52,349 bases of DNA from Candidatus Eiseniibacteriota bacterium (GTDB lineage: Bacteria; Joyebacterota; Joyebacteria; Joyebacterales; Joyebacteraceae): contig JAUWLR010000003.1 in assembly GCA_030613615.1 (NCBI GenBank), forward strand, positions 1-52,349. The letters are read 5' to 3'. Position numbers and translations under genes: made by a program. Shown one piece after another: positions 30,719-46,045 of the stretch. Under the pieces are notes generated by a model. That model was not told where the DNA came from and did not search any database. It saw only the letters and a program-made list of their open reading frames with translations. How positions within the stretch are numbered: the stretch's first letter is position 1; every line of letters starts with the position of its first letter.

Positions 30719-33700
30719 CTACTTGTCCTCGGGTCGTATCCCCATCCCACTTCTGTCCGGATACTCGGGCTTCGGCACCGGCACGAAGGGGTTCTTCTCG
30801 ATCTCGTCGAGCATGACCTCGATGGCCTTGTCGAGCTGGGGGTCTCCCCCGTCCACCATCAGCGCCGGGTCGTCGACGACCTCGATGTCCGGGTCGACAC
30901 CGTGGCCCTCGATGCCCCACGTCCCATCCTTGTTGTAGAAAGCGAAGCGCGGCACGGTCATGTAGCCGCCGTCCGTCAGAGGCGGGTTGCCGGACAGTCC
31001 GACCAGGCCGCCCCAGGTCCGCGTGCCGATGAGCGGACCCACTCCCCTCTCCTTGAACCAGAACGGGAAGGAGTCGCCGCCAGACCCGGCCGATTCGTTG
31101 ATGAGCATGCACTTGGGACCGTAGTGGCCAACCCCCGGATCCGGCGCACCCTCATCGGCACCGCGTACGGCCCAGTAGCTGCCGTGGTGGCGGTCGAACA
31201 GCTCGACAAAGCGCTCGGGCGACCAGCCGCCGCCGTTCCAGCGCTCGTCGATGATGAGGGCGTCCAGATGCATCTGCCCTCCGAATTGGCGCGCGATGTC
31301 GTTGCGTCCGGCTGAGGCGGTGTCCGGAACGTAGATGTACCCGACCGTGCCACCAGACTCCTCCTCGACGTAGGCACGGTTACCCTCTACCCACGCGCGG
31401 TAGCGGAGGTCTCTCTCCGAACCGACCGGCTCGACGACCACATGGCGGACGCTGTCGGTAATCGAAGGCTCCTCGTTGACCGAGAGCGTCACCTCCATGC
31501 CCGCGAGCCCCTGGAAGGCCGCCCACGGGTCCTTGTCGGTGTCTACCGGAACGCCGTTGACCTCGAGGACATAGTCGCCCTCGCTGACACCGATGCCCGG
31601 CTGGCTCAGCGGACCCCTGGCGTCGGAGTCCCACGGACCGCCCTGGTAGATCTTCGAAATCCTGTAGGCGCCGTCGTGGAGCTCGAAGTCGCACCCGAGC
31701 ATACCGACCGAGACGGTGGCGGGCGTGTCGCTGCCACCGCCCATGTAGTAGGCGTGGCCGACGTTGAGCTCGGCGATCATCTCGCCCAGCACGAATGAAA
31801 GATCGCCGCGCGAAGCGCAATCCCCGACCATCGGCTCGTACTGCCTCTTCACACGCTCCCAGTCGACGCCGTGCATGCCGGGGTCGTAGAAGAAGTCGCG
31901 CATGATGCGCCAGGCGTCGTGAAGTGTCGCCATCCACTCGACCCGCGGCTCGATCTCAACCATCATCCCGGACGTGGAGAGCGTCTCGTCCCAACTCTGG
32001 TCGGCCGCGGCGTCGACGATGGCAAGCGATCCCGTCTTGTTCACGGCGAGCACCTTCTCGCCGTCACCTGAGAGGTCGAAGCCGGAGACGCCAGAGAGCA
32101 CGCTCTTCTCCATCTCTTCATCGTCCTCGATGTCGACGAGCTGAAGCGTGGATGATCCTTCGTCCGAGCGTCGCAGGTAGAGCAACTTGCCCTCGTGGTT
32201 CACGGCCAGGCTGTAGAAGCCGCCGCGCTCGATGGGTAGCAGTATCGCCCGCTGCTCGAAACCCTCGATGTCGATGACGAGAGGGTCCTCGTCCTCTTCA
32301 TCTTCGGCGTCTTCGTCGCCGTCCTCGTCATCGGCATCCTCGTCGCCGTCCTCATCCTCGGCGTCGTCGTCACCGTCCTCATCCTCGGCGTCCTCGTCCC
32401 CCCACTCCTCCTCGTCGCTCTCGGGCACGAGCGGCCACTCGACGTCCGCACGCAGCGGCACGGCGAGGAGTCGGTCGGTCTTATCGTAGACCCAGGAATC
32501 CCAGTCGTCACCGGAGGTGAACGAGGTGAAGTCCTTCATGCTGGCATAGAAGAGGAAGTCGCCGGCGCGGTCGAAGGTCGGCCACGTGTCCGCGAACATG
32601 CTGCTCGTTACTTGTGTGAGTTCGTCCTCGTCAAGGTTGTAGAGGAAGACAACGGAGTTGCCCTCGCGCATACCCAGTGCATCCGCGAACGTGAGCCAGT
32701 GCGAGTCGTGCGACCAGCTGACGTTGACACCGCGTCCGCCGATGGCGCGCTTGTAGACCTCCGTCGTGTCCTTCGACTCGATGTCGAGTATGAAGAGCGT
32801 GCCGCCGCTGTCGAAGAACGCTATCTTCTCCGAGTCAGGAGACCAGGTGAGTTCCTCGATGTAGCTGCCCTTGCGGCTGGTGAGCTTCTTCGTCTCGCCA
32901 CGACCGTCCGACTGAACGACGTAGATCTCGTACTCGCCCGACTCGTCGGACGTGTAGGCTATCCACTGCCCGTCCGGACTCCAGACCGGGTTCCGCTCTA
33001 TGGCGTCGTCGGTGCGCGTGATGGCCCTGGGCATCCCGTTCTCCGCGGGGATGGTCCAGATGTCGCCCCGCGCCTGCACGACCGCGCGCTTGCCGGTCGC
33101 GGAAATGCCACCCCCGCCAAGTTCGTCCGCCGCGTCGAAGAGCTGCGGGCGGATCTTCGTGTGGTCACCGGGGATTCTCACGTCCACCGAGTTTCCGCGC
33201 TCGCTCTCGAGGTCGAGCAGGCGGAGCTCAGGACCGTACTGGTAGACGATCGCATCGGGGCCGATGGACGCCCACTTGACGTCAAAGTCGCTATGCTTTG
33301 TGATCTGGCGGGTACGTTCCGTCTTCGTGTCGTAGACCCACACATTCAGCCGGTGCGCGGGACCCGCGTCGGATACGTAGTAGAGATCGTCGCCGTGCCA
33401 CATCGGGAACGTGTCGGCGCCCTCCCAGTCTGTGATCTTCTTCGACGAGTGGTCGCGCAGGTTGAAGAGCCAGATGTCGGGCGCGCGCCCGCCCTGGTAG
33501 CGCTTCCACGTGGAGTAGTCCGTGGCGAACGGGTTGTAGGCGAGCCACTTGCCGTCGTCGCTGATGGACGCGTTCGAGCCATACGGGACCGGCAGCTGCT
33601 CCGGCATGCCGCCCTTCGGTGACACAGTGAAGAGCGCCGCCGTCCTCGAGTACAAACCCAGTCCGTATGCCCAGAAGATAATGTCGCCGTCGGGCGTCCA

Positions 33701-34057
33701 CCCGGTCGGGCGCTCTGAGTATGGATGGTGCGTCACGCGGAAAGGCGTGCCACCCTCCGTCGGAATGGTGTAGATGTCGTTGTTCCCGTCGTAGTTCGCT
33801 GTGAAGGCGATGGTCTCGCCGTCGGGGCTGAACTTGGGGAGCGACTCGTAGCCTGCGGGATTCGCGAGCGGCGAAGCCACTCCACCCTCTCGTGGCACCA
33901 TCCAGATATCGTTGGCGTAGCGGAACACGATGTGTGTCTCGCTGACGTCCGGATAGCGCAGCATTCCGGCGTGCGGCGTCGCTGCCATCGCCGCCGATGC
34001 GAACAGAATGAGTGCGATCCCGACTGCGATGGGAACGCTCGGTCGCCTCTCCAACAT
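30719..34057 (-). CDS. Tricorn protease homolog (secreted; PD40 beta-propeller, PDZ, S41 core)
   Basis: Signal peptide; GYESLPKFSPDGETIAFTANYDGNNDIYTIPTEGG..., PVWSPDGQWIAYTSDESGEYEIYVV; catalytic region CMLINESAGSGGDSFPFWFKERGVGPLIGTRTWGG. Confidence 0.95.
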   Translation of the reverse strand: MLERRPSVPIAVGIALILFASAAMAATPHAGMLRYPDVSETHIVFRYANDIWMVPREGGVASPLANPAGYESLPKFSPDGETIAFTANYDGNNDIYTIPTEGGTPFRVTHHPYSERPTGWTPDGDIIFWAYGLGLYSRTAALFTVSPKGGMPEQLPVPYGSNASISDDGKWLAYNPFATDYSTWKRYQGGRAPDIWLFNLRDHSSKKITDWEGADTFPMWHGDDLYYVSDAGPAHRLNVWVYDTKTERTRQITKHSDFDVKWASIGPDAIVYQYGPELRLLDLESERGNSVDVRIPGDHTKIRPQLFDAADELGGGGISATGKRAVVQARGDIWTIPAENGMPRAITRTDDAIERNPVWSPDGQWIAYTSDESGEYEIYVVQSDGRGETKKLTSRKGSYIEELTWSPDSEKIAFFDSGGTLFILDIESKDTTEVYKRAIGGRGVNVSWSHDSHWLTFADALGMREGNSVVFLYNLDEDELTQVTSSMFADTWPTFDRAGDFLFYASMKDFTSFTSGDDWDSWVYDKTDRLLAVPLRADVEWPLVPESDEEEWGDEDAEDEDGDDDAEDEDGDEDADDEDGDEDAEDEEDEDPLVIDIEGFEQRAILLPIERGGFYSLAVNHEGKLLYLRRSDEGSSTLQLVDIEDDEEMEKSVLSGVSGFDLSGDGEKVLAVNKTGSLAIVDAAADQSWDETLSTSGMMVEIEPRVEWMATLHDAWRIMRDFFYDPGMHGVDWERVKRQYEPMVGDCASRGDLSFVLGEMIAELNVGHAYYMGGGSDTPATVSVGMLGCDFELHDGAYRISKIYQGGPWDSDARGPLSQPGIGVSEGDYVLEVNGVPVDTDKDPWAAFQGLAGMEVTLSVNEEPSITDSVRHVVVEPVGSERDLRYRAWVEGNRAYVEEESGGTVGYIYVPDTASAGRNDIARQFGGQMHLDALIIDERWNGGGWSPERFVELFDRHHGSYWAVRGADEGAPDPGVGHYGPKCMLINESAGSGGDSFPFWFKERGVGPLIGTRTWGGLVGLSGNPPLTDGGYMTVPRFAFYNKDGTWGIEGHGVDPDIEVVDDPALMVDGGDPQLDKAIEVMLDEIEKNPFVPVPKPEYPDRSGMGIRPEDK
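32283..32405. repeat. 27-bp in-frame acidic repeat in the tricorn gene
   Basis: Encodes DEDAEDEDGDDDAEDEDGDEDADDEDGDEDAEDEEDED, about 3 units of DGDEDAEDE. Confidence 0.88.
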
Positions 34058-34160: not shown

Positions 34161-35543
34161 TCACTGGTCCCTTGGGTTCTCGTCCGTGTGACCGTTCTCG
34201 TAGTGCCCGATGAGCTTGACCGGCGCGCCGTCGTCACCCAGCACGATCTCGAGCCGGAAGTACGGCACAGCGTCGAAACTGAACATGGTCTCGGTCATCG
34301 GCGTCGCGACGATCGGGTCACGGTCGTCGCGGTTGTAGAGCAGACGGCCACTCTCCACTCGAAGATGTCGGGGACCGTAGTCACCAGCATAGGACTCAAG
34401 CGTAGCGACGTCCACCTCAACCGGGTTCAGTCTGGCGTCGAGGCCCTGAATCGCCCAATCGAGCACGAAGGCCTCCTCGTCGCTCATGTCACGCTCGCGG
34501 AGCTTGCCCAACGCGTCGAGATACGCCGCGTCGAACGCCTGGTCGGCAGGAACCTCGATGTCGGGCGCGACGCCCGTCCCTTCCCAGTTCGTGCCCGAGA
34601 CGGGATTGATGGCCCGGCCGAACGACACGCGCATTCCCATGTTGAGGCTCGGGAAGAGATACGACGTGACCGGATGGGCGCCGCCGCCGGTTGTCTCCCC
34701 TACGATGGTGCCGCGCTCCAGGTTCTTGACGTTATAGGCGAACTCCTCGGCGGCCGAGAACGTGTGACTGCTCGTGAGGACGTAGAGTCCTGTGTCCACC
34801 ATCTTTGGCCCCGGCACGTAGGGCGCCGACCAGAACTGCTGGAGGGAATCGCCGTCGCGGATATAGAAGCTGTTCAGGTGCGTCGAGCCGTCGAGAAGGT
34901 AGGCCATGATGGTCTGAATGAGGGACGGGCTGCCGCCGCCGTTCTCAGTCAGGTCGATAATCAGCGCATCGGTGTAGCCCAGGAAGTTCATGGCCGCGAT
35001 GGCGGTCGGTCCCGAGAGCGACGTGTCGTTGAAACTGTTGAGCTTGAGGTAGCCGACGTTGCCATCGAGGATCTCCAGTTTCTTGAACTCGAAGTTGCGC
35101 TTCCTGCCTCGCTCGAAGGCCAGCTGATGCGCGACATCGGGGTCCTCGTCGCCCTGCTGGTACTCCTCCAGGAGCTCGTCGCTCATGAACTGCACGCCGA
35201 GGTGCCGGTCACTGCTGATCTCGCGCATGTCCTCCGTCAGCTGCCGAGCAAACTCCTGCACGGTCTCGAGCTCGTCGTACTCGCCCTCCTTGAGCTTGCG
35301 GCGAATGTGCTTCTCCATCTCCTTCGCTACGTCCTCGAAGACGTAGGTCCTGTTGAGAGCCCAGCTGACCGAGTCGACCGCGGCCGCCTTGAACTCGGCG
35401 CTCGCGGGCATCGAGTCGTCCTGCCCGACAACCATCCGCCGCTGAGCAAGGCACGGCGCCGCTGCCAGAAGAACGAACAGCGTCAGGAACACCAGAAGCC
35501 CCAGACGCCGTCTGAGCGACATCATCCGCTTGCCGAGCCTCAT
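34161..35543 (-). CDS. Secreted S41-family peptidase (IRBP-like)
   Basis: Signal peptide; DALIIDLTENGGGSPSLIQTIMAYLLDG, LYVLTSSHTFSAAEEFAYNVKNLERGTIVGETTGGGAHPV. Confidence 0.92.
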   Translation of the reverse strand: MRLGKRMMSLRRRLGLLVFLTLFVLLAAAPCLAQRRMVVGQDDSMPASAEFKAAAVDSVSWALNRTYVFEDVAKEMEKHIRRKLKEGEYDELETVQEFARQLTEDMREISSDRHLGVQFMSDELLEEYQQGDEDPDVAHQLAFERGRKRNFEFKKLEILDGNVGYLKLNSFNDTSLSGPTAIAAMNFLGYTDALIIDLTENGGGSPSLIQTIMAYLLDGSTHLNSFYIRDGDSLQQFWSAPYVPGPKMVDTGLYVLTSSHTFSAAEEFAYNVKNLERGTIVGETTGGGAHPVTSYLFPSLNMGMRVSFGRAINPVSGTNWEGTGVAPDIEVPADQAFDAAYLDALGKLRERDMSDEEAFVLDWAIQGLDARLNPVEVDVATLESYAGDYGPRHLRVESGRLLYNRDDRDPIVATPMTETMFSFDAVPYFRLEIVLGDDGAPVKLIGHYENGHTDENPRDQ

Positions 35544-35834: not shown

Positions 35835-36722
35835 CTACCTGATCGACAGCTCCATCCCACAGTCGTCGATGGCGAAGCAGATGCTCTCTCTGAAATGTGC
35901 CTTGTCTCGCACGAATGCTAGGTAAGGAGCGAGCTCTTTCCTCGCGGTCCAGTCGAGATTGTCGTGCGCCATGACCCAGGCGCCCTCTGGCAGGCGGTCG
36001 TAGATCTGTTTCAGTAGGATGAGATAGAGGCCGCTCACCGGCCCGAGCGGGTCTTTCTCCCCCGAAGCCTGGGCGGCGGCGCTGGCCCTGTTCTCGTACT
36101 TGGCCTCGAGATAGACGAAATCGAACGGGCCCTCGATGCGGTCGAGCGCGGTTCGCGCGTCCTCTGCGATGAGCTCGACCTCCGACACGTCCTCGAGCTT
36201 CTTGAAGTTGGCGCGAGCCTCCCTGACCATGTCGGCGTCCACGTCGATGCCGATGATCCGCTCCGCGGCGTAGGCCCTGTTGGGACCGATGCACGGCCCC
36301 GCGAACCAGCCGAGCGTGTAGCCCCAGAAGCTGCCGAGCTCGAGCAGATGCGCGGGCCGCCTCACGCTCGTCAGCATGTACATCAGCCGCTCCATCGTCG
36401 GGCTCAAGCTGGTCCACGACCCCTCGAACTTCTCCTTGAGCCGGGCGCGGTGCACATCAAGCGCGAGCCGGTCGTAGTCGGCCGAGACCGGCACGTGGCC
36501 TTCGCTCTTCAGGAGCTCGAGTGCCGAGTCGACGATCTTCGACTCCTGGGCGGTCCGCCCGAGCCGGTAGGCGAAGTACGGGTCGCGATGCGCGACCTCG
36601 CTGCGCAGCCCGTCGGGCGCGTTCTCATTGAACGCTGCGTCCGGATGCACGAGTCCGTCTGCCTTCATCTTCTCGAGGGCGAGCGCAATCGCCTCCCTCG
36701 ACGGGTGAAACGTCAGGGCCAT
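35835..36722 (-). CDS. Class I SAM-dependent methyltransferase
   Basis: AHLLELGSFWGYTLGWFAGPCIGPNRAYAAERIIGIDVDADMVREARANFKKLE. Confidence 0.75.
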   Translation of the reverse strand: MALTFHPSREAIALALEKMKADGLVHPDAAFNENAPDGLRSEVAHRDPYFAYRLGRTAQESKIVDSALELLKSEGHVPVSADYDRLALDVHRARLKEKFEGSWTSLSPTMERLMYMLTSVRRPAHLLELGSFWGYTLGWFAGPCIGPNRAYAAERIIGIDVDADMVREARANFKKLEDVSEVELIAEDARTALDRIEGPFDFVYLEAKYENRASAAAQASGEKDPLGPVSGLYLILLKQIYDRLPEGAWVMAHDNLDWTARKELAPYLAFVRDKAHFRESICFAIDDCGMELSIR

Positions 36723-36766: not shown

Positions 36767-37162
36767 CTACTCTGACTCGACTGTCACGACCGGCGTCCTG
36801 TTCGCATCGAAGACGCGGATGGTGTCGTCATGCAGCAGGACCCAGAACGAGTAGATGCCCAGCGCCGTTCCGAAGGGTATGTCGATGAGGTCGAAGGCCC
36901 CGACTATCAGCGCGAGGATCCTCGCCCACCGCCTGCGCATCAGGAGCGCGATGCCCGCGATGAGCCCCGGGACCGACAGCACGATCAGGAACGTGCCGAG
37001 GCCAATGCCCACGGCCGTCAGGATAGTCATGGCCGTCGGGTCGCCCGTGAGGCATCCCACGCTCGACAGGACACCCATGATGATGAAGCCCACTACGAGC
37101 CCCAGAACGTGGTAAGCGATGAAGAGTACACCAAGCAGCGTCACGTGCTTGTCCATGTTCAC
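36767..37162 (-). CDS. Small multi-TM membrane protein
   Basis: MNMDKHVTLLGVLFIAYHVLGLVVGFIIMGVLSS...VPGLIAGIALLMRRRWARILALIVGAFDLIDIPFGTALGIYSFWVL; hydrophobic segments. Confidence 0.75.
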   Translation of the reverse strand: MNMDKHVTLLGVLFIAYHVLGLVVGFIIMGVLSSVGCLTGDPTAMTILTAVGIGLGTFLIVLSVPGLIAGIALLMRRRWARILALIVGAFDLIDIPFGTALGIYSFWVLLHDDTIRVFDANRTPVVTVESE

Positions 37163-37299: not shown

Positions 37300-38301
37300 C
37301 TAGGCGCTCTTCTTGACCTCCGGTATCTTCTCCCCCTCGCGCGGCTCTCTCAACACCTTCCTGAAATCCACCCACGCGGGCCGGGCCTCGAAGCCGAGCT
37401 GCAGGTTGAGGCCGAACATCGGGTTGTTCTCCTCGTTGTCGGTCTCGATTATCGTCGCGCCGTAGTCGCGCGCGAATCTGACGCCGCTGACCTTGAGCGC
37501 GGTGGCGATGCCCTTCCGCCTGTGACTTCTGACAACACCGGTAAGACCCGTGTGGAGCTTGTGTTTCTCCACCTGCGACGTCCAGAACCCGGTCAGCCCT
37601 ACGTACCTCCTTTCGTCGATGGCGACGAAGTGCGCGCTGGCGTCGTAGTTGGGTGAATCGAATCGCGACGCGAACTGCTCGAAGCTCACCCTGGTCGGCG
37701 GCTCCGGCAGCGGCACGTCCATCCAGCACTCGTTCTCGAGTTCGTACCAGCTCCGCTTCCAGTCCGGGTCGCGTGCGGGAAGGTCCGGGACGTTGACTAT
37801 CTCGATACCTTGCTCCCTCACGTGCTCTTCGACACCCTCGAACTTCGCGAAGTCGAACGTCTGTGGATTCAGGTGTGAGACGGGGTAGCGCATGGTCCGT
37901 ACGAACCCGCGCTTCGTGAGGAAGCGAATGAAATCCGGTTTGTCCTCGCGAGTGTCCGCCGTGAAGAAGAGCGGGTCGAGCGCGGCGAGGCCGGCGACCA
38001 CGTGGTCGTACATCGCCGTGCCGTAACCCATGCGCGTGTAATCCGGATGCACATCGACACCGACGAAGTACTTGCCAGGGACGTGCGTCCACTCGCTTTC
38101 GCCGCAGCTCGAGAACGCCACGATCTCCCCATCGATCTCCCCTACCACACGCCTGAACAGGTACTTCGGGTTCCGGTGCTTGTCGCGGTGCTGCCAGCTT
38201 TCCGGTGAGGAGAGCTCCTCCGGCCAAATGGCGTTCGCTATGTCGACGCAGGCTCGGTACTCCTCGTCGGTACCAGCGAACGGTCGTATCTTGATTGTCA
38301 T
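37300..38301 (-). CDS. Double-GNAT N-acetyltransferase, array member 1
   Basis: N-GNAT VHPDYTRMGYGTAMYDHVVAGL; C-GNAT TGLTGVVRSHRRKGIATALKVSGVRFARDYGATIIETDNEENNPMFGLNLQLGF. Confidence 0.92.
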   Translation of the reverse strand: MTIKIRPFAGTDEEYRACVDIANAIWPEELSSPESWQHRDKHRNPKYLFRRVVGEIDGEIVAFSSCGESEWTHVPGKYFVGVDVHPDYTRMGYGTAMYDHVVAGLAALDPLFFTADTREDKPDFIRFLTKRGFVRTMRYPVSHLNPQTFDFAKFEGVEEHVREQGIEIVNVPDLPARDPDWKRSWYELENECWMDVPLPEPPTRVSFEQFASRFDSPNYDASAHFVAIDERRYVGLTGFWTSQVEKHKLHTGLTGVVRSHRRKGIATALKVSGVRFARDYGATIIETDNEENNPMFGLNLQLGFEARPAWVDFRKVLREPREGEKIPEVKKSA

Positions 38302-38373
38302 TGTCAGGTCCTCTTGCGCCACGCTGTAGTTACACGCGGCGAGCCTGTGGTATTCGTCGGTTGCGGAGCCGGG

Positions 38374-39384
38374 CTAGTCCGTGCCGGCGACGGCCTTGTC
38401 AGCCGCACCCAGCTCCTTCCTGAACTGAAGCCAGGCCTTGGTCGGAACGAACCCGAGCCGCATGTTGAGATCGTACATCGGGTTATTCTCCTCGTTGTCT
38501 GTGACGATCACCTTAGCGCCCCGTTCCTTCGCAAACTCGTGGGCGCGCACCTTGAGCGCGGTCGCTATGCCGCGCCTACGGTGGCTCCGCACGACGCCGG
38601 TGAGTCTCGTGTAGAACTCGCCCTTCTTGACGCGCCTGTCCCAGACACTGCTCATTCCGACGTAGCGGCCACCGTCCAGCGCAAGGAAGTAGCCCTCAGG
38701 GATGAAGTCCGGATGTTTGAAGCTCTTCTCGAATTCGGAGAACGGCTCGTTGTGCAGCACATCGTCGTCCGGCACGTCGGGGATGATATCACCGTGCAGC
38801 TCCCACGTCTTCCGCATCCAGTCGGGGTCGCGCTTCGCAATCTCGCTCGCGGCCAGAATCTCGATGCCCGATGCGTGGACGCTCTCCACGACACCCGCGA
38901 ACTTCGCGGGCTCGAATGAAGCGAGGTCGAGTTCCGAGTCCTGCTCCTTCATGGAGATCCGGAATCCCCGCTGCTTGAGGAAGGCGATGCCGGCCTCGTG
39001 GTCCTCGCGCGTGAACGATTGGAGGATCTCGGGCTCATGCACCTCCAGGTGCTCGAGTATGCCGTCGAAGAGCGCCCGACCGACCCCCTGGCCCTGACGG
39101 CCGGGGCGAACCTGCGCGTAGACCAGGAACTTGCCCGTCGCCGCCGAGTCGGCCTCCTCGCGGAAGTAGCCCGTCGCCACGATGTCGCCGTCGTCCTCCG
39201 CGACGAGCCGCCCGAACGGGCTCATGGGGTCACGGCTCTCCGCGTTGTAGCGGTACATCTCGGCGGTCTTCGGGTACTCCGGCCAATTGGCCGTCCAGAT
39301 GGCGGCCGTGGCCTCGTAGTCGGCATCGGACTCGTTCATCGCTCTCACGTGCAGTGTCAACTCCCGTCCTCCGTTGCACCTCAT
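38374..39384 (-). CDS. Double-GNAT N-acetyltransferase, array member 2
   Basis: VRPGRQGQGVGRALFDGILEHL; TRLTGVVRSHRRRGIATALKVRAHEFAKERGAKVIVTDNEENNPMYDLNMRLGF; ATGA overlap with the next upstream gene. Confidence 0.92.
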   Translation of the reverse strand: MRCNGGRELTLHVRAMNESDADYEATAAIWTANWPEYPKTAEMYRYNAESRDPMSPFGRLVAEDDGDIVATGYFREEADSAATGKFLVYAQVRPGRQGQGVGRALFDGILEHLEVHEPEILQSFTREDHEAGIAFLKQRGFRISMKEQDSELDLASFEPAKFAGVVESVHASGIEILAASEIAKRDPDWMRKTWELHGDIIPDVPDDDVLHNEPFSEFEKSFKHPDFIPEGYFLALDGGRYVGMSSVWDRRVKKGEFYTRLTGVVRSHRRRGIATALKVRAHEFAKERGAKVIVTDNEENNPMYDLNMRLGFVPTKAWLQFRKELGAADKAVAGTD

Positions 39385-40382
39385 TCGGCCGCGTCGCCCT
39401 CACGCCCACCGGCCTCTCCGCCGTCGCCCCCCCGGTGTTTCCGCATGTGCACCCACCCCGGCGTCGGCTTGAACCCCAGTTTGACGTTCAGCGGGTACAT
39501 CGGGTTCTTCTCCTCGTTGTCCGTGTCCACGAACTGCGCCTCGGTCGTCCGCGCCTTCGTGAGCGCGTGGACCTTGAGCGCGGTCGCGATGCCCTTCCGC
39601 CGGTGGCTCCTGATGACGCCGGTCAGGTCGGTCTGGAGCTTCGTGGGTTCGGCCAGGTTCAGCTCGAGCATGCTGACGCCCACGTACTCATCACCATCCA
39701 GCGCCACGAAGAACCCCTCCGGGAAGAATGTAGGCTTGTCGAAGGTCTGCCTGCAGTAGACCTCGAACTCGCGCTTCTTCGGCTCGTCGACCTCGGGCAC
39801 GTCCAGCGAGAGCAGCCAGTCGAGTTCCCAGAGCTTCATCCTCCAGTCGGAATCCTCTTCCTTGAGCTCCGTGAGCGGAACGATGCGGACGCCCGATTCC
39901 CTCACACGCTCGACGACGTCTGCGAACTTCGAGGCATCGAACTCCGCGAGCGTCAGACGCGAGTTCTGCCCACGCATCACCTGCTCGTAGCCTCGCTTCG
40001 TAAGGAAGCTCACCGCGTCGGCCTTGTCCTCACGTGTCCACGAGTCGAAGATGGTCGGTTGTCTCTCTGAGAGCACGCCCACGACGTGGTCGTAGATGGC
40101 CTTCCCGTATCCCCTGCGCTGGTGGTCAGGGTGAACCTGCACGTAGATCCAGAACTTGCCGGGAACCGGCGTCCACGACGACTCGCCGAACGAGCACGAG
40201 CCGACGGGCACACCGTCAACCTCAAGGATGACACGCTCCAGCATGTAGCTCTGGTCCCGTGCGTCGTCCCGGTGCTTGAGAAGCTCCGGGAGCTCCAGTT
40301 CGTCCGGGAAGACCGCGTTGGCGATGTCGATGATGATACCGTAGTCGTCGTCGCTCCAGTTGAACGGTCGTATATCTGCCAT
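39381..40382 (-). CDS. Double-GNAT N-acetyltransferase, array member 3
   Basis: VHPDHQRRGYGKAIYDHVVGVL; TDLTGVIRSHRRKGIATALKVHALTKARTTEAQFVDTDNEEKNPMYPLNVKLGF. Confidence 0.92.
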   Translation of the reverse strand: MADIRPFNWSDDDYGIIIDIANAVFPDELELPELLKHRDDARDQSYMLERVILEVDGVPVGSCSFGESSWTPVPGKFWIYVQVHPDHQRRGYGKAIYDHVVGVLSERQPTIFDSWTREDKADAVSFLTKRGYEQVMRGQNSRLTLAEFDASKFADVVERVRESGVRIVPLTELKEEDSDWRMKLWELDWLLSLDVPEVDEPKKREFEVYCRQTFDKPTFFPEGFFVALDGDEYVGVSMLELNLAEPTKLQTDLTGVIRSHRRKGIATALKVHALTKARTTEAQFVDTDNEEKNPMYPLNVKLGFKPTPGWVHMRKHRGGDGGEAGGREGDAAE

Positions 40383-40412
40383 GGTGTTGTCCCTGTCGGT
40401 CAGTTTCGGATG

Positions 40413-41411
40413 TTACCCTTCGACCCTCTCCCCCAGCTTCTTAATAAAGATGAGCCACGCGGGGACCGGCTTGAACCCCAGCCGGACGTTCAGGTCGTAC
40501 ATCGGGTTGTTTTCCTCGTTGTCTGTCTGTATCACTCTCGTACCGATGTCACGTGCGAACTCTATCGACCGAACCTTGAGCGCCGCTGCGATACCGCGCC
40601 GCCTGTGCGGCCGCGCGACGGCCGTGAGGCCGGTGCCCAGACTGCCCGGGTCGGCGAGCCGCTTCCACAGACTCGTCGCCGCCACGATCTCATCCCCATC
40701 GAACGCGAGCAGTATGGCGCCTGGAAGCCTGTTGGGCGCGTTGAGCTCGCGCTCAAACACGTCGTACGTGAACTCCATTCGGTCCACGAATATCGGCACG
40801 TCCTCGAAGAACTCCACGTACTTCTCGTGGGCCTTCCGCCGCGCGTCCGGGTCCTCCGCTTCGTATTCCTCGAACGTCTTCACCGTGATGTCGGACTCCT
40901 CGAACCGCGCCACGAGGCCCGCGAACGGCGCCGCGTCAAAGGACGCGACGTCCAGACGCGAGACCTGCTGCCTCTGCTTCTGCTCGAAGCCCCGGTCGGT
41001 CAGGAACTTCGTCGCGTGCGGCTGGTCCTCGCGGGAATCAGACACCAGGCTCAAAGGCTTGCGCTCGAGTTCGTTGAGGCGCTCGACGATGTGGTCGTAG
41101 ATCGCCGTGCCGATGCCCCTCCTCTGGTACTCGGGCAGCACTCGGATCTGCACGCCGTACATGCCCGGCTCATTGGCCCACTCGGGCTCGCGGTAGATCG
41201 CGGTCGCGACTATCTTCCCCCCGAGTTCTGCCATGAGCCGCTGGAAGAAGTGCCTCCCGCTGCGAGTCCGGTTCGAGTAACGCATGCCCTCTACCGACGT
41301 AGGCTCGTCCGGCCAGATCGCGTTCAATATGGCGACGGACGCGTCGTAGTCACGGTCGGTGTCGTCGAACGGCCTGATGGTCAGCCCTTCGGGGCTCTTC
41401 ACGTCGCTCAT
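40413..41411 (-). CDS. Double-GNAT N-acetyltransferase, array member 4
   Basis: VLPEYQRRGIGTAIYDHIVERL; TGLTAVARPHRRRGIAAALKVRSIEFARDIGTRVIQTDNEENNPMYDLNVRLGF; ATGA overlap with the next upstream gene. Confidence 0.92.
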   Translation of the reverse strand: MSDVKSPEGLTIRPFDDTDRDYDASVAILNAIWPDEPTSVEGMRYSNRTRSGRHFFQRLMAELGGKIVATAIYREPEWANEPGMYGVQIRVLPEYQRRGIGTAIYDHIVERLNELERKPLSLVSDSREDQPHATKFLTDRGFEQKQRQQVSRLDVASFDAAPFAGLVARFEESDITVKTFEEYEAEDPDARRKAHEKYVEFFEDVPIFVDRMEFTYDVFERELNAPNRLPGAILLAFDGDEIVAATSLWKRLADPGSLGTGLTAVARPHRRRGIAAALKVRSIEFARDIGTRVIQTDNEENNPMYDLNVRLGFKPVPAWLIFIKKLGERVEG

Positions 41412-42415
41412 CGATCCTCCTGTGCGGGCTCACCCGCCGGATTGTTCTTCGCAAGCTCGTTCTTGTACGCCAGCCACGACGGGATCGGCTTGAAGCCCAG
41501 GCGGACGTTCAACAGGTACATGGGGTTTCTCTCCTCGTTGTCCGTGCGGATGGATTCGAAGCCCATCTCTTTCGCGCCCATGATCGCGCGGACCTTGAGC
41601 GCGGTCGCGATGCCCCTCCGCCTGTGCGTACGCGCAACGCCGGTGAGCCCTGTCTGAAGGAGCTTCGGGTCCGCGAGATTCCGCCAGAGCTGCGACATGC
41701 CAACGTACCTGCCGGCGTCGACGGCGATGAACCACGACTCCGGCATGCCGTCCGGTCCATCGACTTCCGCCATGTACTGCTCGAACGGCATCTTGGTGAG
41801 CGGGTCCGGGAACGGCACGTCCTGAAGGTACTCCCAGCCGGCCTCGTACGCCTTCCTCAGCGCATCAGAATCCTCGGCCATCAGCTCTCTGAACGAGCGG
41901 ACGTCGACCTCGGAAGCATCGACACGCGTGAGCGTCTCTTCGAAGGGCGCCGAGTCGAACGACCGGACATCGAGCTTCGAGAACTGGTTGCGCTGCGCCA
42001 CGCGGAACCCGCGCTTCTCGGCGAAGCGCATGCTGTCGGGGTCGTCCTCCCGCGCGTACGCCGTCAGGACCGTCGGCTTGGGGTCGCGCCCCGCGAGCAC
42101 GCTCCAGATGTGGTCGTAGACCGCGGTGCCCCACCCGAGCCGCCGGTACTCCGGGATGACCTCGACACCGATCATGTACTTGCCCGGGTAGTGGCTCCAC
42201 TCGGCCTCTCCGTAATAGGCGGCAGCGACGGGCGTGCCGTCCAGCTCTCCGATGAGACGCTGGAACAGATACTGCTTCTGGCGGGTCTCGTCGTAATGCC
42301 GCCTGGTCTCGACGGCGACCGGCTCGTCGGGGAAGGCCGCGTTCCAGACGTCCACAATAGCCTGGTAGTCCTCGTCGGAATCGTCGAACGGCCTGATGGC
42401 GAACCCCTGACGCAT
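41408..42415 (-). CDS. Double-GNAT N-acetyltransferase, array member 5
   Basis: VIPEYRRLGWGTAVYDHIWSVL; TGLTGVARTHRRRGIATALKVRAIMGAKEMGFESIRTDNEERNPMYLLNVRLGF. Confidence 0.92.
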   Translation of the reverse strand: MRQGFAIRPFDDSDEDYQAIVDVWNAAFPDEPVAVETRRHYDETRQKQYLFQRLIGELDGTPVAAAYYGEAEWSHYPGKYMIGVEVIPEYRRLGWGTAVYDHIWSVLAGRDPKPTVLTAYAREDDPDSMRFAEKRGFRVAQRNQFSKLDVRSFDSAPFEETLTRVDASEVDVRSFRELMAEDSDALRKAYEAGWEYLQDVPFPDPLTKMPFEQYMAEVDGPDGMPESWFIAVDAGRYVGMSQLWRNLADPKLLQTGLTGVARTHRRRGIATALKVRAIMGAKEMGFESIRTDNEERNPMYLLNVRLGFKPIPSWLAYKNELAKNNPAGEPAQEDR

Positions 42416-42416
42416 C

Positions 42417-43346
42417 TCAGACCTCCTTCAGCCACTGCCGCAAGACCCTGTAGTCGGTGAAGCCCGCTGACGCGTAGCACCTGTGGGCGGCCTCGGACTC
42501 CGAGCCGACGAACCCCATCGTGGCTCCCATCTCCCTGGCTCGCCTGAGTCCCTCATGTATGCACGCCACAGCCAGGCCTTTCCTCTGGTGGGCCGGCGAC
42601 GTCGCGACGGGCTCGCATGCGGCCGTCAGTGTGATGTCATCAAACCAGACGGTCGCGAACGACGCAACCGCCCCATCCGGCGCCACCGCGACGATGTCAA
42701 GATCGCGGCGGTAGAGCGGCGCCTTCTGGATGTTGCGATACCAGGTGACGTCCGCCCTGTTGTCGTGCGCCTGCGCCGGGTCGTCCGGGTGAAACGCCAG
42801 CCCGGACGCGTAGCACCGCTCCAGGAGCTCGGCCCCATCATTCATCGGGCGCACAACGAACCCCGCGGGCACCACCGGCTCGGGAATCTCTCCCTGGAGC
42901 GACATGTGGCGCGCGTGCTCCTCGTACCTGGGTTCGAACCCACGGCGCTCGAGGATTGTCTCTCGCGTCGTGTCGCCCTTCGTGGCCCAGACGGCCACTT
43001 TGTTCTTGCCATCCTTGGCCACGGTCCAGAGCCGCTTCTCCGCCACGGCGATCATCTCGTCCTCAAGTTCCTCGGCTCTGAACCCCGGATGCATCTGGAG
43101 GAAGGCATTGCCCTTGCCCTCGGCGTTGAGCACAGCTACGAGCTTCCCGTCCGACGTCTCCCACAGGAGGACCTTCTCCTCCAGGGGACCCTGGTCGAGG
43201 TTCGCGACGCCGTGCCACACCCAGTACTCGAACCTGTACACCTGCCAGTTGAGCTCCTCGCGGTCGTCCAGGAGGAACGTCTCACGTAAGTAGGCCCGGA
43301 TCTTCCAGAAGTCGGGAGCCTCATATGCCCTCATGGTGAGTTTCAT
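42417..43346 (-). CDS. Divergent GNAT-family acetyltransferase embedded in the array
   Basis: CEPVATSPAHQRKGLAVACIHEGLRRAREMGATMGFVGSESEAAHRCYASAGFTDYRVLRQW; lacks the TDNEE..NPM signature of its neighbours. Confidence 0.85.
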   Translation of the reverse strand: MKLTMRAYEAPDFWKIRAYLRETFLLDDREELNWQVYRFEYWVWHGVANLDQGPLEEKVLLWETSDGKLVAVLNAEGKGNAFLQMHPGFRAEELEDEMIAVAEKRLWTVAKDGKNKVAVWATKGDTTRETILERRGFEPRYEEHARHMSLQGEIPEPVVPAGFVVRPMNDGAELLERCYASGLAFHPDDPAQAHDNRADVTWYRNIQKAPLYRRDLDIVAVAPDGAVASFATVWFDDITLTAACEPVATSPAHQRKGLAVACIHEGLRRAREMGATMGFVGSESEAAHRCYASAGFTDYRVLRQWLKEV

Positions 43347-43467
43347 GTATTCCCTGTCCTGTGCTTGTGCCGCGCGTGGCGGCTGGAATCAAACCGGGGC
43401 CGCCGCTCCTTTGCCTCATGGCGCGGGAGCGGCGCCGCCCCGATCGTGATGAATGGTCCTGCCGGCA

Positions 43468-44493
43468 TCAAGCGCCCTCCGACGCGCTGACCACCCGGGC
43501 GGAGCCGTCGGCGTCGACCTTGCCCGCGACCTCAGCCGCTCCGTCGAACGGGCGCCGGTACTCGGTCCACGCGGGAGTGGGCTTGAAGCCCAGCCGCATG
43601 TTGAGCTCGAACATGGGGTTCTTCTCCTCGTTGTCCGTCTCGATGAACTTCGCACCGTGCTCCTTCGCGCGCGAGAACCCGTGCACCTTGAGCGCCGTGG
43701 CGATGCCCTTCCGCCTGTGGCTCCTGACGACGCCCGTGAGTCCGGTATAGATCTTCGCGGGGTCCGCCTCGGACAACCAGAGACCGGTGTAGCCCACGAG
43801 CCGGTCGCCGTCACGAGCGAACCAGTGCATGTTCATCCGGTATCCGGGGCTGTCGAACCGCTTGCACCAGATCTCGAACGTGGGCCGCGTAGGCTCGTCG
43901 ATGAATGGCACATCCTGGAAGAGCTCCCATCCGAGGTCGTACCACGAGCGTTTCCAGTCGGGGTCGATCTCGGCGAGCTCCGTCAGACACTGGATCTCCA
44001 CGCCGAGCTCCTTCATCTTACCCGGCGTCCAGTCGAACTCCGACAGGTCGAGCGCCTCGACGTCGAGCCGCGAGACGGCGTACCGCATCGCGAACTCGTA
44101 CCCGCGCTTTGTGAGGAAGCGGACGTAGTCGGGCTTGTCGTCGCGCGTCCACGTCATGAGCGTGTCGGCGCCGCCCTTCGCGAGTTCGCCCATGAGGAAG
44201 TCGTAGAACTGACCACCGTGGCCGTGGTTCTGGTGGTCGGGATGGACCTCGACGAACACGAGGTACTTGCCCGGCACGTGGCTCCAGGTGCAGTGCCCGT
44301 AGACGCCGGACGCCACTATCTTCCCGTCCACCTCTCCCACGAACCGCGCGTGCGTGTACTTCGGGTCGCGGCTCGCGTCCTCATACTTGAACTCTGCCAG
44401 ACCCTGTTTCTCGTCGGGCCACAGCGTGTTGGATATGTCGAGCACCGCACGGTACTCGTCGTCGGTCTTCTTGAACCTGCGTATCGTCATCAT
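43468..44493 (-). CDS. Double-GNAT N-acetyltransferase, array member 6 (start trimmed to MMTIRRF)
   Basis: VHPDHQNHGHGGQFYDFLMGEL; TGLTGVVRSHRRKGIATALKVHGFSRAKEHGAKFIETDNEEKNPMFELNMRLGF; ATGATGA overlap with the upstream gene. The 482-aa ORF's first 141 residues read the neighbour out of frame. Confidence 0.92.
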   Translation of the reverse strand: MMTIRRFKKTDDEYRAVLDISNTLWPDEKQGLAEFKYEDASRDPKYTHARFVGEVDGKIVASGVYGHCTWSHVPGKYLVFVEVHPDHQNHGHGGQFYDFLMGELAKGGADTLMTWTRDDKPDYVRFLTKRGYEFAMRYAVSRLDVEALDLSEFDWTPGKMKELGVEIQCLTELAEIDPDWKRSWYDLGWELFQDVPFIDEPTRPTFEIWCKRFDSPGYRMNMHWFARDGDRLVGYTGLWLSEADPAKIYTGLTGVVRSHRRKGIATALKVHGFSRAKEHGAKFIETDNEEKNPMFELNMRLGFKPTPAWTEYRRPFDGAAEVAGKVDADGSARVVSASEGA

Positions 44494-45473
44494 GTTGGTT
44501 TGTCTCCATTCGTGCTCTTGAGTTCTTTCCTGTAGGTCCACCAAGCCGGCACCGGCTTGAAGCCGAGACGGACATTGAGGTCGTACATCGGGTTGTTCTC
44601 CTCGTTCTCCGTTCTGATGATCCGGGCTCCACGGTCGCGCGCGAACTCGATCGATCGCGCTTTGAGCGCGGTCGCTATGCCCTTCCTGCGCTGGCTTCTC
44701 ACGGTACCGGTCAGATTCGTGTGGAGCTTGTCCTTCTCGGCCATGGACTGCCACAGGCTCGTCACGCCTATGAACCTGCCGTCCACGATCGCGACGAAGT
44801 GCGCCTCCGGAATGAAGCCCGGGTGCGTCAGCCACTTCACCCACTGCTCGAAAGGCTGCTTCGTCACCGGATCGTCGGTCGGAACATCCTGCATCAGCTC
44901 GTGCTCGAGCTCCCACATCTCTGGCTTCCAGTCGATTCCGTCGGCCTCGAGTTCCGGCACGGTTCGTATCTCGACCCCGATCTCGGCCATGCGTTCGCCC
45001 GTCCAGGCGAACGGCTCAGGATCGAAGTCGGCGACAACGAGCTCGGACATCTGGTCGCGCAAGGTCTTCTTGTACCCACGCTTCTCCAGGAAACTCATCC
45101 CCTCCTGCTTGTCCTCCCGGGCATGAGACTCGAAGATCGTGGGACCGCGCTCCGCCAGATCACCCATGATGTGGTCGTAGAGCGCCGTCCCGATCCCGGT
45201 CCTCTGGTGATCCGGGTGAACCTGCACGCTGATGAAGAACTTCCCGGGCACGTGAGTCCACTCGGACTCGCCGTAGAGGGCGCTGGCGACTATGCCACCG
45301 TCAATCTCCACGACCAGGCGCTGAAGGTAGTACCTCGGGTCGCGCCTCTTGTCGTTCTCCTTCGTGCCCTCCGGCACGCTCGGCCTGTCAGGCCAGACGG
45401 CGTTAGAGATGTCCGCGAGTGCCTGGTAGTCGTCGTCGCTGTAGTTGAACGGTCGTATCATCATCGTTAGCAA
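44490..45473 (-). CDS. Double-GNAT N-acetyltransferase, array member 7
   Basis: VHPDHQRTGIGTALYDHIMGDL; TNLTGTVRSQRRKGIATALKARSIEFARDRGARIIRTENEENNPMYDLNVRLGF. Confidence 0.92.
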   Translation of the reverse strand: MLTMMIRPFNYSDDDYQALADISNAVWPDRPSVPEGTKENDKRRDPRYYLQRLVVEIDGGIVASALYGESEWTHVPGKFFISVQVHPDHQRTGIGTALYDHIMGDLAERGPTIFESHAREDKQEGMSFLEKRGYKKTLRDQMSELVVADFDPEPFAWTGERMAEIGVEIRTVPELEADGIDWKPEMWELEHELMQDVPTDDPVTKQPFEQWVKWLTHPGFIPEAHFVAIVDGRFIGVTSLWQSMAEKDKLHTNLTGTVRSQRRKGIATALKARSIEFARDRGARIIRTENEENNPMYDLNVRLGFKPVPAWWTYRKELKSTNGDKPT

Positions 45474-45503
45474 CTCCCAAGTTGTCGGTTCCTTTCGGTT
45501 GAC

Positions 45504-45689
45504 CTAGCGGGCAGGCTTGGTCTCGAGCTTGATCTTGATATTGAGAACGCGTATCACGTTCATGCTTTTGCTTCTTCCTCTGACGGCCAGGACCGCCCTG
45601 TCGGGGTCCGGCCACGCTGCGTTCGAGACGTCGAGCAGGTTTTGATACCGCCTGTCGCTCTCGTCCTGTGCGCTGATCAGATACTCCAT
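45504..45689 (-). pseudogene. Internally deleted GNAT relic (or 61-aa micro-protein) at the head of the array
   Basis: MEYLISAQDESDRRYQNLLDVSNAAWPDP... matches the array N-terminus (MIRPFNYSDDDYQALADISNAVWPDR); tail VIRVLNIKIKLETKPAR resembles the C-terminal ...DLNVRLGFKPVPAW; all CoA-binding sequence is missing. Confidence 0.55.
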
Positions 45690-46045
45690 GTTCTGTTCTT
45701 CCTTTCGCGTGGACGCGGCGCGCCCACATCGCTCATGAGTTCAAGTGTCGTGTCGGCCAGCTTCGCCTCGCGCCAATCCACCTTCAGCGTCCGGACGGTC
45801 AGCTCGGCCGTCTGCTTGTCGCGGGAGCGGCTCGCGCGCGTCTGGCGCGGCTCCTCCCCGACGGCTCCCTTGGGGGGACGTAGGCTCATCAACAACATGC
45901 TCGCTGCCAGGTTCATCATCCCGATAACAAGCAGCCTCATCGTGTGATGGCCGAACATCGCCCCCAGGCAACACGCCCCTCCGGCTGCGGCGAATGCCAC
46001 CGCGGCGAGACGGTACCTCGCATGTGCTGTGATGTTCTTAGCCAT
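45677..46045 (-). CDS. Small membrane protein with basic cytosolic tail, first gene of the GNAT transcription unit
   Basis: MAKNITAHARYRLAAVAFAAAGGACCLGAMFGHHTMRLLVIGMMNLAASMLLMSLRPPKG...; SD GAGGAGC; overlaps the relic's start by 13 nt. Confidence 0.65.
   Translation of the reverse strand: MAKNITAHARYRLAAVAFAAAGGACCLGAMFGHHTMRLLVIGMMNLAASMLLMSLRPPKGAVGEEPRQTRASRSRDKQTAELTVRTLKVDWREAKLADTTLELMSDVGAPRPRERKNRTWSI

Follow-up and report, generated by a model that had tools for sequence, protein, structure and literature searches.

An old, operon-like array of ORF14/MAB_4324-like tandem GNATs as a candidate substrate-diversified acyltransferase panel

The array and its surroundings

The window analysed here is a stretch of 52,349 nucleotides from Candidatus Eiseniibacteriota bacterium (assembly GCA_030613615.1, contig JAUWLR010000003.1, positions 1 to 52,349), a little-known organism that is probably a cold-seep bacterium. 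Between positions 37300 and 45689, seven full-length tandem GNATs, one divergent double GNAT (g6) and a 61-aa ORF lie head-to-tail on the minus strand, as read from the ORF table and by direct translation (Table 1). An earlier sequence-only reading had described seven full-length paralogues and a divergent GNAT in this arrangement, and the ORF coordinates agree with it; the three ATGA start/stop overlaps that it pointed out are all real. Each of the seven tandem GNATs has two PF00583 matches and a length of 324-341 aa, and the copies can be aligned end to end, with an identity to g1 of 39-50%. The C-terminal signature that had been proposed for all seven is invariant across the 7-copy alignment. 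No further close member of the family was found elsewhere in the same MAG. It is plausible that the array would be transcribed as a single unit, one that contains gaps of 121 nt before g6 and 51 nt before g1 if this gene starts at its GTG, or about 70 nt if it starts at the ATG.

Table 1. Features of the array and of its flanks in the window
Feature	Position	Strand	Remarks
S41 peptidase	30719..33964		3' side of array
S41 peptidase	34161..35543		3' side of array
Predicted methyltransferase	35835..36722	-	3' side of array
131-aa hydrophobic ORF	36767..37162	-	directly downstream of g1 in 4 sister species
g1, tandem GNAT	37300..38322	-	GTG start; family-typical ATG at 38304 likelier; orthologues in 4 sister species
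g2, tandem GNAT	38374..39384	-	start overlaps g3 stop, ATGA 39384-39381
g3, tandem GNAT	39381..40382	-	
g4, tandem GNAT	40413..41411	-	start overlaps g5 stop, ATGA 41411-41408
g5, tandem GNAT	41408..42415	-	
g6, divergent double GNAT	42417..43346	-	between g5 and g7; weak MshD similarity
g7, tandem GNAT	43468..44493	-	start overlaps g8 stop, ATGA 44493-44490
g8, tandem GNAT	44490..45464	-	ORF to 45473, ATG at 45464; modelled
61-aa mini-ORF	45504..45689	-	earlier taken for a relic; first ~28 aa resemble a GNAT N-terminus, then unrelated 33-aa tail
122-aa ORF	45677..46045	-	hydrophobic N-terminal half; overlaps mini-ORF start; upstream of array, kept in 3 sister species

The 61-aa ORF had been taken for a truncated relic. 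It is instead kept in four species, conserved rather than visibly decaying: in G001 and G003 it has the same length and is 90-95% identical, and in G002 it lacks 30 nt through an in-frame deletion. For the 122-aa ORF and the mini-ORF, dS is 0.02-0.19, compared with 0.25-0.36 for the flanking atg22, DUF4342 and g8, and between about 46345 and 45460 on the minus strand the nucleotide identity mostly lies at 0.9-1.0 (90-95% overall in three sister species). A structured RNA did not emerge from this region, which has no Rfam match and a fold z-score of -0.98 that is not unusual. Judged by its conservation, the region of the 61-aa ORF is a conserved leader and not a visible wreck.

In the window genus the array is bordered on its 5' side by the 122-aa ORF and the mini-ORF and on its 3' side by the 131-aa ORF, followed by a predicted methyltransferase and two S41 peptidases; neither the 122-aa nor the 131-aa ORF has a match in Pfam or NCBIfam. 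In other genera of the family the flanks hold pyruvate kinase, RNase E/G and MsrB instead, and the arrays of Chloroflexota have different neighbours again. We looked for a conserved neighbour gene that could give a pathway and found none common to the genera, the flanks being housekeeping genes or transporters. As the neighbours are not conserved between genera, no pathway is indicated by the genomic context and the array itself is the unit to be explained. The related claim that biosynthetic core genes are absent stands for one kind, as an NRPS-based cluster could be rejected from the lack of any condensation domain in the MAG. The methyltransferase gives a weak match to the PADLOC model mad2 (3e-14) over its methyltransferase part, which is likely generic similarity, and the contigs of G003 and G004 lack this gene.

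Age, orthology and selection

A maximum-likelihood tree of 138 family proteins places each copy of the window with its orthologues from the sister species, with SH-aLRT support of 99-100. DNA trees built separately for N domain, C domain and C core recovered all seven slots as single groups with support of 95-100 SH-aLRT. Since the slots stay whole in these domain-wise trees, the copies have stayed distinct, with no gene conversion between them. That such conversion might explain the conserved C-terminus was rejected on the same trees and on the paralogue pS, which is equal in the C core and elsewhere. An assembly artefact, the danger that the sequence-only reading had foreseen, was rejected as well: the copies are no assembly duplicates because they share so little identity with g1, and the same slots recur in sister MAGs, most of which were separately binned and are read by us as cold-seep MAGs.

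The relative gene order is the same in the sister species wherever the contigs let the copies be followed. Elsewhere in the family, L043 has four copies, of which three join g1, g7 and g3 and one joins a fourth clade; L038-L042, from other genera, have three copies. By this phylogenetic placement the seven slots are older than the split of the genus, and some of them reach other genera of the family. The divergent g6 occurs in G001 (split over two contigs), is interrupted in G003 and has a 37% identical relative in G008. Deletion derivatives were seen within the array in G003 and G004 (L036 1-1000, L045 5200-5735 and L037 1-520); some of their junctions show an overlap of 7-15 nt, and they are either real variants or assembly joins. 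Array genes are frameshifted in G002 and G014. In the G002 case (L072 9722-11728) sequencing error is likely, because the adjoining atg22 is broken too.

On the substitution pattern, purifying selection acts on all seven copies. Orthologue dN/dS in true orthologue pairs of the window with G001 or G003 is 0.14-0.31 for all seven (0.16-0.20 for g1), and 0.40 for a partial g4; values from G004 and G005 were left out where different slots had been paired, the true orthologue being missing there. The C core, which comprises beta4, the CoA loop, alpha3, beta5 and alpha4 (residues 246-301 of g8), is under stronger constraint than any other region of the protein, with a paralogue pN of 0.245, a pS of 0.53 and an orthologue dN/dS of 0.13. 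The acceptor-side part of the C domain (165-245) and alpha1-alpha2 of the N domain have paralogue pN values near pS, 0.466 and 0.479 respectively, and orthologue dN/dS of 0.20 and 0.21. The acceptor side is thus more divergent between copies than the C-terminal core, as the sequence-only reading had supposed, and the least constrained part is the CoA-loop region of the N domain, where dN/dS reaches 0.40. Positions that differ between slots and are the same within them are concentrated on the acceptor-side elements, with 5 of 315 circular shifts scoring as high for elements that were picked after the alignment was seen. In g8 numbering, the slot-specific residues are 27, 31, 34-36 and 137-138 of the N domain and 180, 208, 223, 231 and 311 of the C domain. 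The same concentration was not significant in two types of Caldilineaceae array (97/315 and 47/315 shifts).

Fold, relatives and catalytic residues

The AlphaFold model of g8 consists of two GNAT units with a mean pLDDT of 96.8. Its best Foldseek matches are 7q3a (MAB_4324), 2wpw/2wpx (ORF14), 3tt2, 5kf1 (GlmA) and 1ozp (MshD), and the fold match to 7q3a, 2wpw, 3tt2, 5kf1 and 1ozp is full-length with a TMq of 0.69-0.75. By sequence, the best PDB match is ORF14/CBG of the clavulanic acid cluster (phmmer 7e-12, profile 2e-19). ORF14 is likewise a tandem GNAT, has the same C-terminal block T-x-N-x-E-x-N-PM-xxx-N-xx-LGF and, by alignment, an Asn at the position of the general-acid Tyr. It differs from the array copies in that the sequence match lies mainly in the C domain (TM about 0.74, 18-19% identity) and in being a single gene within a biosynthetic cluster. 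MAB_4324c of Mycobacterium abscessus, the top Foldseek match over the whole length, is also a tandem GNAT, but it is a single gene and only 18% identical. MshD and GlmA share the tandem GNAT fold as well; GlmA carries a Tyr where the window family has Asn (a Y297F mutant is in the PDB), and we take this Tyr297 to be its general acid. Membership of the MshD family is not indicated, as the best score against TIGR03448 is 26.8 bits (g6) and the seven copies reach at most 20.9, compared with a cut-off of 163.1. A role in anti-phage defence was rejected too, there being no PADLOC model match among the array GNATs scanned, a set that excludes g3.

The CoA P-loop pattern [QR]xxGx[GA] is found in the C domain of all seven copies and of 91 out of 105 family members. 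In the N domain it is found in six of the seven and in just 57 of the 105; g1 reads TRMGYG, so the claim that every copy has an N-terminal (Q/R)xxGxG loop does not hold. The general acid of GNATs is often a Tyr. At the corresponding position, four residues before the Gly of the closing GF, the C domain has an Asn (Asn297) in 103/105 members and the N domain has mostly Leu, and g6 keeps a Tyr there in its C domain. By this residue the seven copies are Asn-type tandem GNATs, outside the canonical type with a Tyr as general acid. As Asn297 replaces the catalytic Tyr, the details of catalysis must be different, or the activity could have been lost.

Among the tandem GNATs that have been studied, catalysis is usually confined to the C domain, and the N domain binds acetyl-CoA non-catalytically and helps to form the cleft (PMC10936415). 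In VipF, for example, the N lobe is part of the substrate-binding interdomain cleft and catalysis is by the C domain only (PMC10936415), and RmNag is a further case of a single, C-terminal catalytic domain (PMC4680927); exceptions to the rule of one catalytic domain have been noted (PMC13060382). The earlier impression of two competent domains in each copy is not supported, given that solved relatives generally have one catalytic domain, that the N-domain CoA loop is so weakly constrained and that the general-acid position is mostly Leu in the N domain and Asn in the C domain.

Proposed function, rival explanations and similar rows elsewhere

The reading we favour, and consider reasonably probable, is that this operon-like array of ORF14/MAB_4324-like tandem GNATs, which is old and arose by tandem duplication, is a substrate-diversified acyltransferase panel. 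Its products would be acyl-CoA N-acyltransferases, in which the conserved C-terminal GNAT domain may transfer an acetyl group, or another short acyl group, from CoA to an amine, and the acceptor amine may be held in the cleft between the two domains. The elements lining this cleft would have diverged between the copies after duplication and then have been fixed within each copy. The outcome could be a series of enzymes that serve different small amines, peptides or toxicants with an amine group, and each copy probably acts on a different substrate. If so, nature would have provided seven enzymes that share a catalytic core and have seven different acceptor clefts, and that have persisted for so long that their specificity could be read from sequence. 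The array could also open a way into the amine metabolism of bacteria that are uncultured and probably live at cold seeps, and it could serve to test the role of the second domain in tandem GNATs, which has been called unclear (PMC10936415, PMC4680927).

It is unlikely, in our estimate, that the panel serves detoxification or antibiotic resistance by acetylating amine antibiotics of the sediment, as Eis and MAB_4324 do. The fold match to Eis and MAB_4324 would fit such a role, MAB_4324 having a mild acetylation activity on amikacin and a modest amikacin effect (PMC10727445), as would weak matches to AAC families. However, these scores are far below cut-off and at the level of any generic GNAT, with at most 25 bits for AAC(6')/AAC(3) against curated cut-offs of 140-320 and 15 bits for Eis against an NCBIfam cut-off of 576, Eis also being longer (about 400 aa) than the array proteins. 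Deletion of MAB_4324c is reported to be without a resistance phenotype (PMC10727445), no resistance genes are adjacent to the array, and the slot-by-slot conservation in the genus suggests steady endogenous substrates.

We think it rather improbable that the paralogues are subunits of one hetero-oligomeric acyltransferase, in which translational coupling would set the subunit ratio and the divergence would reflect interfaces. The start/stop overlaps, the conserved gene order and the constraint on every slot are all consistent with a complex, and ORF14 is dimeric in crystals. The relatives of solved structure, however, are regarded as acting alone, and the divergence in the array sits on acceptor-side elements. 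A fixed complex would also be hard to hold because the copy sets vary within genus and family: only g2 and g1 are whole in G004, beside remnants of g7 and g8, one other genus has three copies and another has one to three.

Dosage, or neutral duplicates that are partly decaying and kept by chance, seems to us a very poor explanation. The deletion derivatives and frameshifts described above could be seen as decay, but all seven copies have a low dN/dS, gene conversion is absent and the slots persist across species. A panel of distinct enzymes is favoured over dosage because the acceptor-side elements differ between copies and are conserved within lineages, and the earlier proposal of amplification with diversification therefore survives, with seven slots that predate the genus. 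Just as improbable is a peptide-handling module in which the GNATs cap peptides or amino acids freed by the two downstream S41 peptidases: a tricorn-like S41 gene does lie downstream of the GNATs in the window genus, G008 and G014, but other genera of the family have the genes named above in its place, the Chloroflexota neighbours differ, and G003 and G004 have lost most of the smaller S41 gene.

The substrate-diversified panel that we favour can also be set against similar rows in other genomes. Members of the tandem-GNAT family occur in 13 of 20 genomes of the host's small phylum, with 4 to 9 matches or fragments per genome in the window genus, three in most genomes of another genus, one to three in a further one and four in G009; four genera of this 20-genome sample have no family member. 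A neighbourhood search for consecutive double GNATs found rows of at least three in Caldilineaceae, Anaerolineae and Fraserbacteria (L049, L054, L056, L057, L060, L081, L084, L087 and L093), each with 3 to 7 members head to tail, so that the array is not unique. Several Caldilineaceae genomes have such rows, with up to 11 members per genome spread over several rows, and L054 from Anaerolineae has seven members, six of them consecutive. As in the window, the slots of the Caldilineaceae rows are orthologous between related genomes. The rows of these three groups differ from the window in their neighbours (ABC sugar transporter genes, PadR/MFS, amidase and Rieske oxygenase) and in belonging to clades separate from the window slots. 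By their occurrence, rows have formed in several lineages. Among 150 other, evenly drawn Chloroflexota genomes, with 14 candidates per genome scored and counts that are thus lower bounds, adjacent pairs were seen and no row of three or more. The motif-based sampling of relatives favours close kin and gives no estimate of frequency. We found no description of tandem-GNAT arrays in the literature searched; the kind of enzyme is already known, and the maintained row is a variant without a description there.

It is possible, though we hold it only tentatively, that rows of Asn-type tandem GNATs are a recurrent kind of locus, a combinatorial acylation panel that would have arisen and been maintained separately in several phyla. 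One conserved catalytic core would be combined with exchangeable acceptor clefts, and the targets would be endogenous metabolites or peptides that are related to one another.

Two further features were observed in the Caldilineaceae rows. In L087 (7593-12240) and L093 (12479-17128) the row is broken by sugar-type ABC transporter genes, coding for a periplasmic binding protein, an ATPase and permeases, and is followed by another family member. Directly upstream of the rows lies a gene for a protein of 332-334 aa (L084 704-1702, L087 218-1216 and L093 6381-7385), which is 67-87% identical between the genomes and whose L087 copy has no Pfam match.
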